From Thermosipho affectus (GTDB taxonomy: Bacteria > Thermotogota > Thermotogae > Thermotogales > Fervidobacteriaceae), in assembly GCF_001990485.1 (NCBI RefSeq), contig NZ_LBFC01000002.1, forward strand, positions 1 to 61,630: a stretch of 61,630 nucleotides of DNA, written 5' to 3'. This document shows positions 43,834-60,752 of this stretch, one piece after another. Made by a program: the position numbers and the translations under genes. Position 1 is the first letter of the stretch, and each line of letters begins with the position of its first letter. The notes under the pieces are model-generated. The model saw nothing but the letters and a program-made list of their open reading frames with translations, was not told where the DNA came from and made no database searches.

Positions 43834-43867
43834 ATAAAATAAGTATATGATAAAATGGAGGGATTTA

Positions 43868-46036
43868 ATGTTCTTTAACACTAACTTTGAAGATAAAAAA
43901 TATGCTATAGAAACATTAGAAGATTTTATAAACAATCTATTAGATTTTCTCATTATCTCTGGAAGTGCAGGTACTGGTAAAACTTTTCTTATATCTAAAT
44001 ATGCACAATACTTAAATAAAAAAAACATCAATTTTGTCCTTCTTGCACCTACTGGAAGAGCGGCAAAAATACTCTCAGAAAAATCTGGCTTTGAGGCTAA
44101 GACTATACACAGTGAAATTTACAGTTTTACCAATATGGAAATTAAAGAAAAAAACGACGAATTAAAAATATATTTTTCTTTAAATATTAACAAAAGTGAT
44201 AAAACAATTTACATTGTTGATGAAAGCTCTATGATTTCCGATGTAACCAACAACAATTTTTTAGTATTTGGAAGCGGAAAATTATTAACAGATCTTATTA
44301 CCCACATAAAATATGGGAAACATAACAAAATAATATTTGTAGGAGACAACTACCAACTTCCTCCTGTCAATTCTTCATTTTCACCTGCACTTGATGAATT
44401 TTATCTAAAAGAAAAATTTCATCTCGATGGTAAAAAAATTACATTAGATAAAGTAGTAAGACAAAAATCAGATAGTTTTATTCTAAAAAATGCGCTTCTA
44501 ATAAAAAAACATATTCAAAATAATAATTTTTTTGATTTAAACTTATCACTTTCAAATGATTTCGTAGAAACTCCAAATTTAATTTCACAATACGATGTTA
44601 ATAATACAAATAACAATATAATCATATGTTCGACGAATAAAAAAGCACTTGAATATAACAAAAAAATTAGAAAAATGAAGAATCTAAAACAAACATTCGA
44701 AATAGGAGATATATTACTAAATACGCGAAATGTTCATTTTCAAAACCAAACTATCTTAAACGGAGAATTCTTTGAAGTTTTAGATATTATCTCAAACGAA
44801 AAGCAAAGTATTTATTTACGTGGTAAAAAACCAATAGATTTAATATTTTATGATTTAAAACTCAAAAATATACTAACTAATAATGTAATAAAATTCAAAG
44901 TCCTTGCAAACAGTCTTTACACAAAAAGTACAAGTGAAAGAGATTTACAAATAGCATTAATCGTATTAACTAAAAATATGGTTGGAAATATTAAAAATAA
45001 TGAATTACATAAACACCTTGAAAACAACCCTTACTTTAACGCACTATATGTGAAATATGGATATGCTATTACCACCCACAAAGCACAGGGAGGAGAATGG
45101 GAAAATGTTTATGTTGATACCGAATTTTACAATTCCTTGAAATCCAAAGAATATTTTAAATGGCTATACACATCAATTACACGTGCAAAAAAGAAAGTAT
45201 ATATAACACCGTTACAAATCAATTCTATAGAAAATAATAATATTAAAATCTCTGATAAGTATGTTATAAAAAGCAAAATAAAAATTCCAGTTGAAAATGA
45301 AAAATTAAATAAAGAATGTTCTAAAGTTATACATAACAAATTAATAAAAAACATAACTTCTTACAATTTTAAAATAATTTCCATAAAACATTTTGATTAC
45401 CAAGAAGTATATTATCTACAAAAGGATAATAAATATCTTAAAATACAAGTATTTTATAACAAAAAATGTGATATTACGAGAATAATTTTGTCAGAAGCAA
45501 CTTCGGAAAAAATTGTCAAAGATTTTCTTAATATTTTCAATGCTAAAAACAAAAATTATAACAACACAATCAATAATAATCAAAATTATGATTGTATAAA
45601 AGCTTTTGTTGATGGTAGTTATGATGATAATTTAAAAAAATTTGGTTCAGGACTAGTAATTGTCAAAAAAAATAGAATTGAAAAATACTGTAAAAATTAT
45701 TCCATAACAAAATTCATTGAAAGTAGAAATGTATCAGGTGAAATATTTGCAACGTTACTTGCTTTTGAATATGCAAAACAAGAAAATTTAAAATGTATTG
45801 AAATAAATTACGATTATGAAGGAATTGAAAAATGGGCTCTTGGATATTGGAAAACAAAAAAGGAAATATCTAAATTTTACAAAGAAAGGTATGATTATTA
45901 CTCAAAATTTGTAAATATAAAATTCAAAAAAATTCAAGCACATTCAGGAAATAAATACAATGATTTAGCAGATAAGCTTGCCAAAGAAGCTATTTACAAC
46001 AATTGCAAATCCATAAAATATGAAATAAAAATTTAA
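43868..46036 (+). CDS. RecD-like SF1 helicase fused to a type 1 RNase H domain
   Basis: A 722-residue fusion. Residues 1-470 are an SF1B helicase: SGSAGTGKTFL (Walker A, Lys38), LLAPTGRAAKILSEKSG, YIVDESSMIS (Walker B), FVGDNYQLPPV, GYAITTHKAQGGEWENVYVD and LYTSITRAKKKVYI. After a linker, residues about 578-715 form an RNase H fold with Asp582 (FVDGSYDD), Glu625 (SGEIFATLLAFEYA), Asp649 (INYDYEGIEKW) and Asp699/Asp702 (NDLADKLA). It could unwind and cut RNA-DNA hybrids. ATG 43868 follows GGAGGGATTTA; the in-frame ATG at 43847 has no such site. Composition is unusually rich in Lys, Asn and Ile. Confidence 0.88.
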   Translation: MFFNTNFEDKKYAIETLEDFINNLLDFLIISGSAGTGKTFLISKYAQYLNKKNINFVLLAPTGRAAKILSEKSGFEAKTIHSEIYSFTNMEIKEKNDELKIYFSLNINKSDKTIYIVDESSMISDVTNNNFLVFGSGKLLTDLITHIKYGKHNKIIFVGDNYQLPPVNSSFSPALDEFYLKEKFHLDGKKITLDKVVRQKSDSFILKNALLIKKHIQNNNFFDLNLSLSNDFVETPNLISQYDVNNTNNNIIICSTNKKALEYNKKIRKMKNLKQTFEIGDILLNTRNVHFQNQTILNGEFFEVLDIISNEKQSIYLRGKKPIDLIFYDLKLKNILTNNVIKFKVLANSLYTKSTSERDLQIALIVLTKNMVGNIKNNELHKHLENNPYFNALYVKYGYAITTHKAQGGEWENVYVDTEFYNSLKSKEYFKWLYTSITRAKKKVYITPLQINSIENNNIKISDKYVIKSKIKIPVENEKLNKECSKVIHNKLIKNITSYNFKIISIKHFDYQEVYYLQKDNKYLKIQVFYNKKCDITRIILSEATSEKIVKDFLNIFNAKNKNYNNTINNNQNYDCIKAFVDGSYDDNLKKFGSGLVIVKKNRIEKYCKNYSITKFIESRNVSGEIFATLLAFEYAKQENLKCIEINYDYEGIEKWALGYWKTKKEISKFYKERYDYYSKFVNIKFKKIQAHSGNKYNDLADKLAKEAIYNNCKSIKYEIKI

Positions 46037-54413: not shown

Positions 54414-55775
54414 CTAAATATCCTTGAAATTTCCAAGAATATTTTTCATTTGAGGTATTATCAAAATATCATTTTTTGTCTTTTTGATTTTAAAAGTTCT
54501 ATTTGAAAGTCCTGCATGTGCCAAAAAGTTTCTTTTTTCGCTGGAATAAATTTTAGAATAAATTTGTTTACTTTGTTTATTCTCATTATCTTTGCTCTTA
54601 GTATAAATAATCTCACCTTCTGGCAACCCTTTAGCATAATTTTTTATATCGCTTAACTCCTTTTTTATAGAAAGTGCAGAAAAAACATTTATGTAATTAC
54701 CTTCCTCATTTATCTTCCATACAAAATTTGAAATACTTTCTAAATAGTCAATTGGATACTCATCCTTTAAATGTATTTTTTCATCATATTCATCAAACAA
54801 TTTGACAAATAATTTACTAAAAATGGACGAAAAAATAATTCCTTTAAATGAAGGAGTAATTGCAAGTTTTCTTTTTACTATTTTTTTATCAACGCCATTT
54901 TCGATATCCAAAACATCTTTATATATTTCAATTCCTTTTAAAATGATTTCATCAAAATCTACCTTTTTAAGCATTAAAGAAAATACCAATGGGAATCCAT
55001 AGTAAATTGACTTTAAAAATATTCTAGACTCATTTATAACTTCACTCTTTTTTAATTCTCTGTAAAAATCATTTAACCTGTTCTTTCCGATTATTCTTTT
55101 TTCTTGATTATCCACAAAACTTGAAAACCCAAAAATTTTTTCCCCTTGAAAATCTTTTATATTTAAAAATGGAATTATTCTTTTTTCTTCAATTTTATGA
55201 ACAAATAATATATTTTTTTCTTCTCTACTAAATGGTGACTCTGAATTTGTAACAACAAATTTTACGGGTTTAATAAATGAAATTAATTGCAACAAATCAA
55301 TCAACGAACTATAAAGCATATTAGTATGGTAATTAATTCCAAAAGTAATATCTAAATACACTTCCAAATCATCATTTATATTTAAATCTTTGAAAAGATT
55401 ATAAAAATAATATAAATTCAAATAGTAAAGATCAGTAATTGTACCTTTAAATCTGTATTCCATATCTTTTCTATTTCTAAAAGTGCCTACACCTGGAACA
55501 ACTTTAACTTCAAAATTTTCAAACTCACTGTGACTACTAAAATACTCTGAATATTTCTTAATTAAAAAATTCTCCATCTCATTGTAACTTTTAGGTTGTT
55601 CATCAGTCAAATTAGGATACAAAGTATCTAAAACGAAAATCATAACCTTGTCAATATTAAACTCATTGATTAACAAATTTGGTAAAAAATCATAATTATT
55701 TGATTGTTCTAATTTATAAACAACGCTATTTTTATATGTTCTAATATTGCCAAGTGGCATCAAAAGAATTTTCAA
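54414..55775 (-). CDS. csx1: Csx1-type CARF-HEPN ribonuclease
   Basis: A 453-residue accessory RNase switched on by cyclic oligoadenylate. The CARF half includes ILLMPLGN, VKVVPGVGTFR and LEVYLDITFGINYHTNMLYSSL. The C-terminal HEPN domain ends in SSEKRNFLAHAGLSNR, with the R-x4-H motif at Arg415/His420. Csx1 proteins of this layout usually respond to cA4. TTG at 55775 overlaps the Lon-SAVED stop as TTGA, with GGAGGG 6 bases upstream, so the two effectors are translationally coupled. Confidence 0.9.
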   Translation of the reverse strand: MKILLMPLGNIRTYKNSVVYKLEQSNNYDFLPNLLINEFNIDKVMIFVLDTLYPNLTDEQPKSYNEMENFLIKKYSEYFSSHSEFENFEVKVVPGVGTFRNRKDMEYRFKGTITDLYYLNLYYFYNLFKDLNINDDLEVYLDITFGINYHTNMLYSSLIDLLQLISFIKPVKFVVTNSESPFSREEKNILFVHKIEEKRIIPFLNIKDFQGEKIFGFSSFVDNQEKRIIGKNRLNDFYRELKKSEVINESRIFLKSIYYGFPLVFSLMLKKVDFDEIILKGIEIYKDVLDIENGVDKKIVKRKLAITPSFKGIIFSSIFSKLFVKLFDEYDEKIHLKDEYPIDYLESISNFVWKINEEGNYINVFSALSIKKELSDIKNYAKGLPEGEIIYTKSKDNENKQSKQIYSKIYSSEKRNFLAHAGLSNRTFKIKKTKNDILIIPQMKNILGNFKDI

Positions 55776-57214
55776 ATCCAATCCCTCCTTATATTTTCAA
55801 TTTCAAATGCTTTAATATAACTTCCTGTTTCTTTATCTAATTGATAAATACCTCCTTTTGAAAAATCACCATAAGCCATTCCCAAACCAAAAGCAATCGG
55901 AAGTGGTGCACTAATGAAAAAATGAACATTTTCACAGCCAGTACAAGACCTTACATTTTGTGTAATAGACATAATTTCAGAAACTATTTTAGTCCAATCT
56001 CCAGGTTTAATATTTCCTTTACCATTTTTGTATTCAATAAAAATTATTTTAGATGAAATATTATTATTCAACAAAAATTTTCGAACATCCTGTATAGGAT
56101 TATGTGAAGCAAGATAAATGACATATGAACAATCTTCACCTTCACCTTCAACTGTATACTTAACAAATCTATAATCTTCAGTAATCGATTTAACTTTTCT
56201 AACATTGTCAGTTAAGTCTAAAACTCTATGATATTCTCCATTTTGATGATGGTAAAATACTAACTTATTATGTGTTCCTAATGTTACTCCCAAAGCCATC
56301 GCCATTGCAACAGGTCCTACAATTGATATATGTGGTATTCCGTTATTTGAAATTATACTATTTAACACTTTTCTTGCATCTTTTAGAACTTTTTTCCACT
56401 CATTATTTTTTATTTCATCTGAAACATATGTTTTCTTAAAATCGTATAATTTTTCAAATATATCAACAAAATTCAACGGAAATTTTTCTCCAACTTTTTC
56501 TTTCAATTTCTCATAGGAATTATCTACAAACTCTTCATCACGTTTCTGAAACACGAACAACACTGGCACATGATATTCTTTTGCTTCGAAAAAGTCTTTT
56601 AATTCAAATACATTATTAACATCCAAAGCACTTATTAACTTCAAATTTTCTCTTTCACAAACAGATTCTTTAAAATGTAAATTTCTTATATTCTTCAATA
56701 TACTACCATCACTATCAACTTCACCAGTAAAGGCTACATTTTTTGGAATTTTACTAGTTAATCCTCCCATGGTTATTGCTAACATAAAGGAATTTCCTGT
56801 AAAATGGGAGTCAAATATTACTCCCAAGTTTTTCTGAACTATATTTTCAATATTTTTTATCTTATCTGTAAATCCTTCTAGATTTACATACGTTTTCTCA
56901 TTTTTAAAAACTATAGCCCTTGCTATCTTTCCATTACCAGAGTCATTTACAATCGGAAATCTAACCTCATTATATCCATTTCTATACAAGTTCAAAACTG
57001 TCAAATCATCATTTAATAATTTAATCAACAACTCTATTGACGATGTCTTTTTTGTCTCTAATATCTTTTTTATTATTTCATACAAAACAAAACTTTTTTG
57101 TGGAAAATCTTCGCATTTTAAATATGAATCAACAGCTTCATTTAAACTTATCAAATCTTTTTTTACTAAAAGAACAAAGTCCTCAATATTTTGCTTTAAA
57201 ATATTAATATACAA
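55772..57214 (-). CDS. calpL: Lon protease-SAVED fusion (CalpL-like)
   Basis: A 480-residue effector. Residues about 80-200 resemble the Lon proteolytic domain: DSHFTGNSFMLAITMGGLTSKIPKNVAFTGEVDSDGSILKNI, with candidate Ser142 and Lys182 (LHFKES) 40 apart, as in Lon dyads. The C-terminal half (about 285-480) is a SAVED domain with two repeat halves: HISIVGPVAMAMALGVTLGTHNKLVFYHH and VHFFISAPLPIAFGLGMAYGDFSKGGIYQ. This matches CalpL, the cA4-activated CRISPR protease known from Sulfurihydrogenibium. No AAA+ module or membrane segment is present. Start TTG 57214 with GAGGTG ahead, 3 bases after the CalpT-like gene. Confidence 0.87.
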   Translation of the reverse strand: MYINILKQNIEDFVLLVKKDLISLNEAVDSYLKCEDFPQKSFVLYEIIKKILETKKTSSIELLIKLLNDDLTVLNLYRNGYNEVRFPIVNDSGNGKIARAIVFKNEKTYVNLEGFTDKIKNIENIVQKNLGVIFDSHFTGNSFMLAITMGGLTSKIPKNVAFTGEVDSDGSILKNIRNLHFKESVCERENLKLISALDVNNVFELKDFFEAKEYHVPVLFVFQKRDEEFVDNSYEKLKEKVGEKFPLNFVDIFEKLYDFKKTYVSDEIKNNEWKKVLKDARKVLNSIISNNGIPHISIVGPVAMAMALGVTLGTHNKLVFYHHQNGEYHRVLDLTDNVRKVKSITEDYRFVKYTVEGEGEDCSYVIYLASHNPIQDVRKFLLNNNISSKIIFIEYKNGKGNIKPGDWTKIVSEIMSITQNVRSCTGCENVHFFISAPLPIAFGLGMAYGDFSKGGIYQLDKETGSYIKAFEIENIRRDWI

Positions 57215-57217
57215 AGT

Positions 57218-57970
57218 TTACACCTCGCTTATTTTTAAATTTTTCTCTATTTCTTCTTTGGTCAAACCATCAATATTTGTAATTTTAATGTGATCATGTA
57301 CAACTCCATTAAAAAGTTCTCTGTCATCATAAAACACCTTTACTTTCTTTTCCAAAAGACTATCATCTAAATAAATTATTAGCGATTTTTCCTTAATTAT
57401 TCCCACATAATTTTCACCTTTTACACCATCTGTATCGGCTGCCAAAATTTCTTCATGTCTTTTTAATTCTTCCGGAAATTCTATACATACTTCGTTTGAA
57501 TCATCATAAACTATTTTTTCAAAGAAAAGTTCATATAATTTTTCAATTTTCTTTGCCTCTAAACTAAAGAATTCTTTTCTTGGGCCAGAATACACTTCAG
57601 ACACCAAGATATTGTAATTTTCTACAATTTCTTCCACATCTACGTGTTTTATAAATTCACAGTACTTGTCTGAAAATTCATCGTCAAAATAAAACTTCAT
57701 ATGAGTTAATATAACAGTTGAAACTAAATGATTAATTTTCAATCTCGTGGCTGTTGAGCTTGCTAAAAACGGCTCAGTTGTCAAATAAACAGCTTCGTTC
57801 AAATCATCCGTTTTACTAACTATCACACCATAAATTGGATATTTCGTTGTGTAAATAACGAAAATATCACCTGCAACTAATCTCGAACCGTTGTTTATTT
57901 CTATAAAATCCGCTTTAAACTCTTTATTATATTCTTTATAAAGTTCTAATTCATTTTTTAAGAAATTCAT
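57218..57970 (-). CDS. calpT: CalpT-like sigma-factor inhibitor (MazF-like barrel)
   Basis: A 250-residue protein between the protease and the sigma-like gene, the place of CalpT. Residues 25-110 (SRLVAGDIFVIYTTKYPIYGVIVSK..., YLTTEPFLASSTATRLKINHLVSTVILTHMKF) look like a MazF-like beta barrel without an obvious toxin active site. A charged helical part (111-175) and a small C-terminal beta domain (190-250) follow. The Ala177-Ala178 region (EEILAADTDGVKG) is a flexible candidate cleavage loop. In the known system the protease cuts CalpT to release CalpS. Assignment rests on context plus fold impression. Confidence 0.72.
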   Translation of the reverse strand: MNFLKNELELYKEYNKEFKADFIEINNGSRLVAGDIFVIYTTKYPIYGVIVSKTDDLNEAVYLTTEPFLASSTATRLKINHLVSTVILTHMKFYFDDEFSDKYCEFIKHVDVEEIVENYNILVSEVYSGPRKEFFSLEAKKIEKLYELFFEKIVYDDSNEVCIEFPEELKRHEEILAADTDGVKGENYVGIIKEKSLIIYLDDSLLEKKVKVFYDDRELFNGVVHDHIKITNIDGLTKEEIEKNLKISEV

Positions 57971-57994: not shown

Positions 57995-58663
57995 CTATTT
58001 ATTATTACGTAACTTTTCACAAATTTCTGACATATAAATACGGATAGCCAACAAAAATTCTTTTTCAGTGATACCATTTTCTTGAACAAGTTTCTTTAAC
58101 TTTTCCTTTGTTCTTTGGATAATCTTATATTTTGCATTTTTTGTTTTTTCAGAAAAACATATTTCTTCAGAACGTGATACTTTGTATAAATAAAAGCACA
58201 AATACTCATCATTCATTTTACATAGCTCTTTAAAAAAATACTGTGCTACAACCACAGTTTCAGAGCTGTCACTTAAACTGTCATTTAAATCTTCTGAATG
58301 AAAAAAATATTCAATTCTATTTTCAAAATCATCACTTTCATTGTCTAAAGAAATATTAAATCTATAATTCCTCAAAACATCCACAATATGATTTTTTATC
58401 ATGGTATACAAATACGCGCCATGATTATCTGATAAATTTTTAAATATATGTGCTTTATTCTTTATTTTTATCAAAATATCGTTTAATATATCATTTATTG
58501 CATCTTCAATACTTCCGTAACATGCCTTAATCCCACTTTGATATGTTTTGTTTTTTGAAATAATACTTATTACAATTCCTTTTACAGAATTTAAAAATTT
58601 TTCACTAACTTTATTATTTATAATATAATTCAACAACTCTTTCCTAAACAAATCTTTTTTCAA
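57995..58663 (-). CDS. calpS: Sigma-factor-like protein (CalpS-like)
   Basis: A 222-residue protein. Residues 45-105 (YGSIEDAINDILNDILIKIKNKAHIF..., NHGAYLYTMIKNHIVDVLRNYR) match region 2 of ECF-type sigma factors, which binds core polymerase and the -10 element. The C-terminal half (about 135-215) is helical and Lys-rich with only a vague region 4. In the Calp system the freed sigma factor redirects transcription. TTG 58663 follows GGGGTGAAG, 7 bases after the upstream gene. Targets are unknown; its own operon promoter is one candidate. Confidence 0.75.
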   Translation of the reverse strand: MKKDLFRKELLNYIINNKVSEKFLNSVKGIVISIISKNKTYQSGIKACYGSIEDAINDILNDILIKIKNKAHIFKNLSDNHGAYLYTMIKNHIVDVLRNYRFNISLDNESDDFENRIEYFFHSEDLNDSLSDSSETVVVAQYFFKELCKMNDEYLCFYLYKVSRSEEICFSEKTKNAKYKIIQRTKEKLKKLVQENGITEKEFLLAIRIYMSEICEKLRNNK

Positions 58664-58670
58664 GTTTTCT

Positions 58671-59081
58671 TCACCCCTTTAAAAAATCATCTAGATTCTT
58701 CTTACATACCCCACACTTTTTAAAATATTTATCTACTATCTCTCTTGGGATACCATCAAAAATAAACTTACCTTTCTTCTTAAAAGCATAAGACATTCTA
58801 TTTAAATTACATTCTTTCGAAACAGAACACTCCCTTCTTATATCTATCTTTATTTTGGAATAATTTTTTGTTGATAAGAACAAAAGTCTACACGTATTAT
58901 TTTCTAAATATTCAACAAAAACAGGCCTAGTAGTTCTAGGCCTCTCTTTTGATCTCCAAAGTGATTGTGTTTTTACTATTTTCGAAAATTCCCTCAACCC
59001 TGTCATTATACCTATTACAGATTTAAAGTATCTTTTAAATTCATTTTCAGTTTTAAATATTTCATCAATCAATTTTTTCAA
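58671..59081 (-). CDS. Unknown protein opening the Calp module
   Basis: A 136-residue basic protein I cannot assign. The N-terminal 40 residues are helical. A beta-rich centre (TRPVFVEYLENNTCRLLFLSTKN) vaguely recalls the first strands of PemK/MazF-type barrels. Four cysteines at 85, 91, 123 and 126 (RRECSVSKECNL, KKCGVCKKN) could bind zinc. It is separated from calpS by only 7 bases and sits directly behind a strong promoter. TTG 59081 has GGTGAT 6 bases upstream. It may be a partner, target or regulator of the sigma-like protein. Confidence 0.65.
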   Translation of the reverse strand: MKKLIDEIFKTENEFKRYFKSVIGIMTGLREFSKIVKTQSLWRSKERPRTTRPVFVEYLENNTCRLLFLSTKNYSKIKIDIRRECSVSKECNLNRMSYAFKKKGKFIFDGIPREIVDKYFKKCGVCKKNLDDFLKG

Positions 59082-59099: not shown

Positions 59100-59127
59100 A
59101 TTATAACATATTCAATAAAAATTACAA
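59100..59127 (-). promoter_or_regulatory. Promoter of the Calp/Csm module
   Basis: On the minus strand TTGTAA (59122-59127) and TATAAT (59100-59105) are 16 bases apart; the -10 is extended (TGTTATAAT). The -35 overlaps the end of the second cas2. It is well placed to start the transcript carrying the unknown protein, the Calp genes, csx1 and csm genes independently of cas1-cas2. Confidence 0.65.
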
Positions 59128-59391
59128 AAGATTATTTGAAACAATCCATTTTACTTTTCCATCAACTTCTTTATTAAAAACAGCACTTGAATTAAAGTAA
59201 TATATTACAACACTATCCTTTCTTTCATCAATTACTCTCTTTAGTCTTCCTATTAACTGTTTTAAATTTGATTGTGTTATTTTTCCTTCAAATGTTGAAT
59301 TTTGTTGCCATACAAGATATTCTTTTACAATTTTATGTACTCTACTTACCCTCTTTTCATTAACATCATATGCAAGAAGAATGTATCTAAT
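59122..59391 (-). CDS. cas2: CRISPR adaptation protein Cas2 (second copy)
   Basis: An 89-residue Cas2. RYILLAYDVNEKRVSRVHKIVKEYLVWQQNSTFEGKIT is the Cas2 core with the conserved Asp of YDV and the SxFEG segment. Start is unusual: the normal N-terminus would begin at an ATT codon at 59391, with GGGGGTGA 4 bases upstream overlapping the cas1 stop. The only in-frame GTG (59433) lies inside cas1 with no spaced ribosome site and would add 14 odd residues. Confidence 0.85.
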   Translation of the reverse strand: MRYILLAYDVNEKRVSRVHKIVKEYLVWQQNSTFEGKITQSNLKQLIGRLKRVIDERKDSVVIYYFNSSAVFNKEVDGKVKWIVSNNLL

Positions 59392-59395
59392 AAAC

Positions 59396-60382
59396 TCACC
59401 CCCTATCCCTAAAACCCCGATAATTTTCTTCACCCTTGAGATGCCTTATAAGTTTATAACATTCATGTAATATAACAGTTTTAAAAGAAACTTTTTGATT
59501 TGGATATATTTCTACTGTTTTTTCTAATCTTTTTTCAAGTTCTAAAACAAATTTCTTTTTTCCTTCTTTTGACAGATAAATTCCATCACTTATCGGTTCA
59601 AAATCAGATTTCTGGACAATTTTATTGTTTACCAGATATAAAATTACCTTATCAACTATAATAGGTTTAAAAATTTCAGAAATATCAAGTTGTAAAGAAA
59701 ATTTTTTGTTTTTAGGTTCATGTAGAAAACTTATTTGAGGTTCTAAAGAAGTCTTATAAATCTCAGATAACACTATATTGTACAAAATTGTATTTCCATA
59801 ACTTATTAAAGCATTTATTTCGTCTTTCGGAGGTTTTCTTTTTCTTTCCTCAAAACTAAAATCTTTCTTACCAACTATCTTTCCAAAAGCTTTGTAATAC
59901 CTTTTTCTTATATTTCCTTCAATAGCCATTAAAGCTGGAATATTTGTCTGTTTATCAAGCGTTGATTTAATCTTTTCAATATACAGTATTTCATCATATA
60001 CCAGTTCCTTAAAACTCCTTAAAACTTTCAACATATTATGAACAGCAGCTTTTAATATCTCTTTTGCAATTAAGATACGTTTTTCCATATCGTTATAATG
60101 TTCAAATTGCAAAAGCAATGTCTTTCCCGTTTTATTCTTTTCCCTTGGATAAAAAGTTCCCAGATAATTTCCATAATAGCCAAAAAAATGCAATGGTATT
60201 TCTTCTTTACAGAGCATTTCTAAAAACCTTTTATTTATACTCACTTCTGAAAAAATCATAATAGAACTAACATTTTTTAATGGAACAATCATTGGTTTTT
60301 TTTCTTCAGATTTTGGAATCAAATACATCGCATTATTTTTCTTTCTGATTTCGCCATCTGTAAAAACATATAATGTTTCCAT
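59396..60382 (-). CDS. cas1: CRISPR integrase Cas1
   Basis: A 328-residue integrase that inserts spacers. Metal ligands are intact: Glu155 (MAIEGNIRKRYYKAFGK), His221 (SFLHEPKNKKFSL) and Asp233/Glu236 (LDISEIFKP). The N-terminal METLYVFTDGEIRKKNNAMYL is the beta-sandwich start typical of I-B/III-associated Cas1. ATG at 60382 follows AGGAGGGAGTTT; the upstream extension to 60451 overlaps the first cas2 and is rejected. No cas4 or reverse transcriptase is attached. Confidence 0.95.
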   Translation of the reverse strand: METLYVFTDGEIRKKNNAMYLIPKSEEKKPMIVPLKNVSSIMIFSEVSINKRFLEMLCKEEIPLHFFGYYGNYLGTFYPREKNKTGKTLLLQFEHYNDMEKRILIAKEILKAAVHNMLKVLRSFKELVYDEILYIEKIKSTLDKQTNIPALMAIEGNIRKRYYKAFGKIVGKKDFSFEERKRKPPKDEINALISYGNTILYNIVLSEIYKTSLEPQISFLHEPKNKKFSLQLDISEIFKPIIVDKVILYLVNNKIVQKSDFEPISDGIYLSKEGKKKFVLELEKRLEKTVEIYPNQKVSFKTVILHECYKLIRHLKGEENYRGFRDRG

Positions 60383-60392
60383 AAACTCCCTC

Positions 60393-60656
60393 CTATATAA
60401 TACTGGAAATTGTTGATTTGGGTTCACCAATATAGTGCCTATAAGGAACAAACTCTTTTTTTAAAATATACCAATATATACTATCCTCATTTTCAACAAT
60501 TATGTTCTGTATTTCCATTCTCAATTCATTAAAATCTTTCTCTGTTATTCTACCCTCAAAAACAGATCTTTGTACCCAACGTAAATATTTTCTAGCAATT
60601 CTTAAAACTTTTGAAACCCTTTTTCTATTAACATCGTAAATCATAATAACATACAT
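60393..60656 (-). CDS. cas2: CRISPR adaptation protein Cas2
   Basis: An 87-residue Cas2 of the dimeric ferredoxin-like type that bridges Cas1 dimers. YVIMIYDVNRKRVSKVLRIARKYLRWVQRSVFEGRIT is the family core, close to the other copy. ATG at 60656 follows GGGAGGGAATTTT; the TTG at 60671 lies inside that site. It is the gene nearest the array and 10 bases before cas1. Confidence 0.93.
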   Translation of the reverse strand: MYVIMIYDVNRKRVSKVLRIARKYLRWVQRSVFEGRITEKDFNELRMEIQNIIVENEDSIYWYILKKEFVPYRHYIGEPKSTISSII

Positions 60657-60752
60657 AAAATTCCCTCCCAATTAACTCTCCTTTCATTTATAATTACGAA
60701 TCTAAACAAAAAAATCTGACAAAATAAAAAATTTTTTCAAATAAAAATTTTA

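Follow-up and report, generated by a model that had tools for sequence, protein, structure and literature searches.

What does the gene at the head of the Calp module in Thermosipho affectus encode, and what does its product add to a pathway with three named components? The window analysed here, the whole 61,630-nucleotide stretch of contig NZ_LBFC01000002.1, carries this gene ahead of calpS, and we gave its product the working name CysP. A sequence-only reading had described a 136-aa open reading frame lying 7 bp before calpS and right behind an extended -10 promoter, and had proposed that it is a fourth Calp component: a sigma partner, an anti-sigma factor, a regulated effector or a toxin-like barrel. 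The answer to which we give about an even chance is that, in one branch of the type III CRISPR Calp systems, CysP serves as a dedicated fourth subunit: a MazF/PemK barrel with a Cys4 site that would act as a ribonuclease held silent until CalpL cuts.

Judged from profile matches, cysP lies in a genuine Calp module (Table 1). CalpS is a divergent protein with a weak match (3e-5) to ECF-type sigma factors; the profile of the CalpT family, over its C-terminal part, matches CalpT10 of PDB 8b0u. Beyond calpL are genes for Csx1, Cas10/Csm1, and Csm2; cas1, two cas2-like genes, and a CRISPR array are located on the opposite side. The Calp system of Sulfurihydrogenibium sp. YO3AOP1 likewise combines a Lon-SAVED protease, a CRISPR-T-type anti-sigma factor with a CalpT10-like end, an ECF-type sigma factor, and type III cas genes (PMC11417357). 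That system is described as tripartite, with no fourth protein mentioned in the excerpts of the report available to us, whereas the window contains a gene for a predicted MazF-fold protein ahead of calpS. The two cas2-like genes of the window (59122-59433 and 60393-60671, minus strand) differ from each other and lie on either side of cas1, an order also present in L031, L032, L033, and L035; in Fervidobacterium-type loci, both cas2 genes stand together on opposite strands. Adjoining the cas cluster is a gene for a PIF1-like helicase (43847-46036, plus strand), the C-terminus of which resembles RNase H by eye.

The coordinates and promoter of cysP were re-read and agree with the earlier description. 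The TTG start is backed by alignment of the homologues at an N-terminal M-K-x-L-I, and this TTG is the sole in-frame start codon found downstream of the promoter. The promoter is of the sigma-A type, with the TG one base ahead of the -10 element. A single site of this kind is weak proof because the region is AT-rich, with 42 promoter-like sites compared with 39 in shuffled sequences; a TGnTATAAT motif was, however, found within 130 nt upstream of cysP in 10 of 11 Thermotogota loci (shuffles: mean of 0.2, maximum of 3). From the end of cysP, 7 bp lead to the TTG of calpS (58663), and the two genes share a housekeeping or constitutive-type promoter and are translationally coupled. The gene is present in one copy in the genome (1.77 Mb, 27 contigs) and is under purifying selection, with dN/dS values of 0.20 and 0.05 for two close pairs. 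Identity of CysP to six close relatives is 37-47%, and all four cysteines are invariant across these seven proteins.

Table 1 Features of the cysP region and related open reading frames. Positions refer to the window unless a locus is named.
Feature	Position	Strand	Remarks
Promoter of cysP	59100..59127	-	Sigma-A-type, TTGTAA-16-TATAAT, extended -10 (TGTTATAAT)
cysP	58671..59081	-	136-aa protein of predicted MazF/PemK fold; first gene of the Calp module; TTG start
Arg52 codon	58926..58928	-	Corresponds in alignment to the catalytic Arg of MazF, R25 in the B. subtilis/B. cereus proteins (PMC7354611)
Ser70 codon	58872..58874	-	S/T in 16/16; corresponds in alignment to the catalytic Thr of MazF, T48 (PMC7354611)
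Cys85 codon	58827..58829	-	Putative metal ligand; invariant (16/16)
Cys91 codon	58809..58811	-	Putative metal ligand; 12/16
Cys123 codon	58713..58715	-	Putative metal ligand; 12/16
Cys126 codon	58704..58706	-	Putative metal ligand; invariant (16/16)
Shine-Dalgarno-like sequence of calpS	58673..58680	-	AAAGGGGT, wider stretch AAAGGGGTG; over the last cysP codons and stop; translational coupling; read directly
calpS	57995..58663	-	ECF-like sigma factor; sigma region 2 weak, no region 4 match
calpT (CRISPR-T)	57218..57970	-	Anti-sigma factor; PADLOC CRISPR-T, 3e-35
calpL	55772..57214	-	Lon-SAVED protease; PADLOC CRISPR-Lon, 6e-148
CalpT10-like stand-alone ORF	L037:11131-11370	+	Locus with calpL apart from calpT
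CalpT10-like stand-alone ORF	L041:10968-11297	+	Locus with calpL apart from calpT
CalpT10-like stand-alone ORF	L038:7311-7613	-	Locus with calpL apart from calpT

Homologues of CysP were sought by profile searches in approximately 530 genomes. Seventeen real homologues were obtained: 12 from Thermotogota, including that of the window (103 genomes, single-protein and profile searches), and five from a second phylum, the first of which was met in G197 during a wider draw of 390 genomes and the rest in a search of that phylum. Reading of the neighbourhoods placed all 17 genes directly 5' of calpS-calpT, often with cas2 upstream of cysP, and most loci show a cysP-calpS overlap of 4-50 bp. The association with calpS-calpT persists in the Fervidobacterium-type loci L037 to L042, in which calpL stands elsewhere in the cas cluster, apart from these genes. 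No homologue was found by profile search outside Calp loci in the approximately 530 genomes, or in plasmids, phages, and viral contigs; CysP-like matches in G335, G391, G160, G045, and several Thermotogota genomes contained stop codons or fell within long open reading frames and were discarded as chance. The proposal of a fourth Calp component is supported by this linkage in two phyla. Two findings named beforehand as counting against it, homologues mainly away from calp or cas loci and a lack of conservation at the protein level, were not encountered.

A survey of whether homologues and calpS always occur together had also been suggested. Every CysP is indeed beside calpS, but at least four Calp loci are without CysP: it was not found at four clear ones, L098 and L099 of Thermotogota and L143 and L144 of the Cloacimonas type, which possess calpS and calpT (or equivalents) together with calpL. 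A search of the Cloacimonas-type phylum for CysP, run without a positive control, was empty, and a contig scan with CalpL gave matches in Thermotogota only. CysP is frequent in Calp loci and not universal; these four loci therefore mark it as accessory to one or two lineages of Calp and not as belonging to the core.

Several loci in this survey showed further peculiarities. The cysP gene of a same-genus relative (L034:9750-10205, plus strand) has in-frame stops at its 5' end and the substitution T71A, and its promoter is kept approximately 100 nt upstream despite these stops; decay or a late start may account for this arrangement. The cysP gene of G197 (L112:9758-10260, minus strand) shows an apparent frame change near the NH2-terminus relative to its relatives L151 and L152. 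In L099 (8995-17668), calpS and calpT are followed by genes for two helicases, one UvrD-like and the other PIF1-like with a TBP-TOTE-like end (the latter comparable in type with the helicase of the window), and for two CalpL-like proteins; no cas genes were recognised on the 18.7-kb stretch of L099, which is possibly a non-CRISPR Calp locus. Stand-alone open reading frames of approximately 80-109 aa show similarity to CalpT solely over its C-terminal CalpT10 portion (E of 1e-7 to 1e-9), and their products are possibly decoys or adaptors for CalpL.

Searches with the sequence of CysP against Pfam, NCBIfam, PHROGs, and PDB returned nothing usable; an isolated match to an unrelated enzyme, 2h1r (0.002), was lost when a profile was used. 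PemK was the best Pfam match of one CysP member, below the cut-off: the highest score of any member against PF02452 was 13.9 bits compared with a gathering cut-off of 23.1, and no member passed. In profile-profile comparison, CysP and MazF gave a score of 31.6, with a maximum of 16.6 among 200 column shuffles, and an hhalign probability of 58%. No match to a sigma family was found when sigma region 2 and region 4 domains were looked for, and a sigma-factor identity was put aside.

Structure models were obtained with AlphaFold2 for CysP of the window (12 sequences; pLDDT of 85, pTM of 0.80) and with AlphaFold for a member from the second phylum (16 sequences; pLDDT of 71). Plain Foldseek with the window model gave no significant match in PDB. 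On structural realignment, MazF chains ranked at the top (Z of 6.0-4.5), with CptIN and CcdB after them; rows 1-36 of the VIA-align output were all MazF, CptIN, or CcdB (Z of 6.0-4.0), and the next, unrelated entry scored 3.5. The best viral structural match of this model was a phage PemK/MazF toxin. For the second-phylum model, all 50 matches listed were to MazF, Kid, CcdB, or CptIN (Z of 7.2-5.7), and Foldseek placed three E. coli MazF chains on top (E of 0.03-0.07, probability of 0.93-0.98), the next entry having an E of 1.6. The likeness to MazF becomes clear only through structural realignment and the second-phylum model, and all Z values of the two models against MazF-fold chains are below 8. 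The models support a predicted SH3-like beta-barrel of the MazF/PemK type, and among the identities suggested earlier it is the toxin-like barrel that this evidence favours.

Conservation was counted over 16 aligned CysP sequences. The profile comparison aligned R52 with the catalytic Arg of MazF and S70 with its catalytic Thr. All 16 sequences, from both phyla, have R52 and either Ser or Thr (the latter in six) at position 70. MazF loses most of its activity when the catalytic Arg or Thr is mutated, and one MazF of Mycobacterium carries Ser in place of this Thr (PMC7354611). The RP motif could instead be kept for the fold rather than for catalysis. The four cysteines noted earlier (85, 91, 123, and 126) are present in the window protein, which has a fifth at position 65, but the exact set occurs in only 12 of the 16 members. 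In the remaining four, of the Fervidobacterium/Thermotoga type, C85 and C126 are retained and at least two additional cysteines occur at other positions, a pattern suggesting that the ligands of a metal site have shifted. The protein of the window contains no histidine and is a predicted beta-barrel, not a helical domain, which excludes an anti-sigma factor of the zinc-binding (ZAS, HX3CX2C) type; the sequence-only reading had listed an anti-sigma factor among its options.

CysP thus shares with the MazF/PemK/Kid toxins (PF02452) the predicted fold and the catalytic positions Arg and Thr/Ser, and differs from them in scoring below the Pfam cut-off, in having extra N-terminal helices and the Cys4 site, and in its partner gene, which encodes a sigma factor, with no adjacent MazE. 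We did not file CysP as a MazEF toxin because no member passes the PemK cut-off and no MazE is beside the gene. The PADLOC model PDLC01080 (C3a162; function unknown, no fold in the model) matched the second-phylum members at L153 (5.6e-6) and L151 (0.0086), so that part of the CysP family has already been clustered as an anonymous defence-associated protein. The same model did not match CysP of the window and gave chance matches only against its relatives. The available excerpts of the Calp literature do not mention CysP as a Calp component, and a Calp module with a fourth, predicted MazF-fold member appears to be new.

In other Calp systems, according to excerpts of two reports, cA4 activates CalpL, CalpT is cut, and release of CalpS follows (PMC11417357, PMC12751052). 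In the mechanism that we propose, CysP, a barrel carrying a Cys4 site that probably binds zinc, would be made constitutively from the housekeeping promoter and coupled in translation to CalpS. It would most likely be a ribonuclease; made in advance, it would therefore have to be kept silent by its partners, in a complex with CalpS, CalpT, or both. On production of cA4 by Cas10, CalpL would cut CalpT, and CysP might then be freed or activated alongside the sigma factor. The linkage in 17 of 17 loci, the predicted fold, conserved R52 and S/T70, the constitutive-type promoter, and the overlap with calpS speak for a ribonuclease subunit; the lack of a Pfam or NCBIfam match, the Z values below 8, the hhalign probability of 58%, and the four Calp loci without CysP speak against it. 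A narrower form of this proposal, which we regard as tentative, is that CysP is a MazF-type ribonuclease with CalpS (or CalpT) as its antitoxin, such that one cut by CalpL frees both a transcription factor and a toxin. If this is true, the role of antitoxin in such a toxin-antitoxin pair would fall to a sigma/anti-sigma switch controlled by CRISPR.

The strongest rival makes CysP a structural partner of the sigma/anti-sigma pair that is catalytically silent and cuts no RNA: its barrel would pair with the MazF-like part of CalpT or clamp CalpS, so that the sigma factor is properly held or delivered. We consider this possible rather than probable. It fits the linkage to calpS-calpT, which persists in loci with calpL far away, and a 23-kDa fragment of CalpT is reported, in the accessible part of one paper, to be MazF-like (PMC9704534). 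The CysP profile matches CalpT weakly (score of 27.6), and MazF folds act as dimers, so that a heterodimer is plausible. Profile comparison of CalpT with MazF itself aligned poorly, and for the MazF likeness of CalpT we therefore rely on the published statement. On the other hand, conservation of R52 and S/T70 in 16 of 16 members of two phyla is more than a pure scaffold needs, and Calp modules without CysP retain CalpS and CalpT.

A predicted MazF-type fold with a catalytic pair and a toxin-antitoxin-like overlap with the next gene would also suit an addiction toxin that travels with the CRISPR locus and penalises cells that lose it, independently of cA4. This appears improbable, given that no MazE-type antitoxin is adjacent, calpS is the partner in every case, and the search of approximately 530 genomes gave no homologue away from Calp. 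Slightly less probable still is an effector gene turned on by CalpS after infection, as the regulated effector of the earlier reading would be. The gene is first in the module and has its own promoter, but that promoter is a conserved extended -10 element of the housekeeping type and the same transcript makes CalpS; the shared constitutive-type promoter and the coupling in translation therefore disfavour this role. A chance open frame, which AT-rich DNA, a TTG start, and the missing Pfam match might have suggested, is refuted for practical purposes by dN/dS of 0.05-0.20 and by 17 homologues at the same place in two phyla.

The regulon of freed CalpS is not given in the parts of the Calp literature accessible to us, which describe CalpT as having been read first as a MazF-like toxin and shown later to be an anti-sigma factor. 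CysP is a second protein of predicted MazF fold; its catalytic pair looks intact, and its gene is tied to calpS in two phyla. It is a concrete candidate for a toxic output of the Calp pathway, and the cA4-controlled alarm may release a toxin besides a transcription factor. In the available excerpt of their description (PMC10028731), the type III-E CASP/Craspase systems similarly combine a protease-cleaved sigma inhibitor and a sigma factor with another conserved gene, csx31, whose role is unexplained, and CysP hints at a parallel with csx31. A second pairing of MazF and sigma genes was observed away from Calp in a Thermosipho-type genome (L116:1483-3169, plus strand), where a MazF/PemK gene of the canonical kind and a sigma-70-family-like gene overlap.
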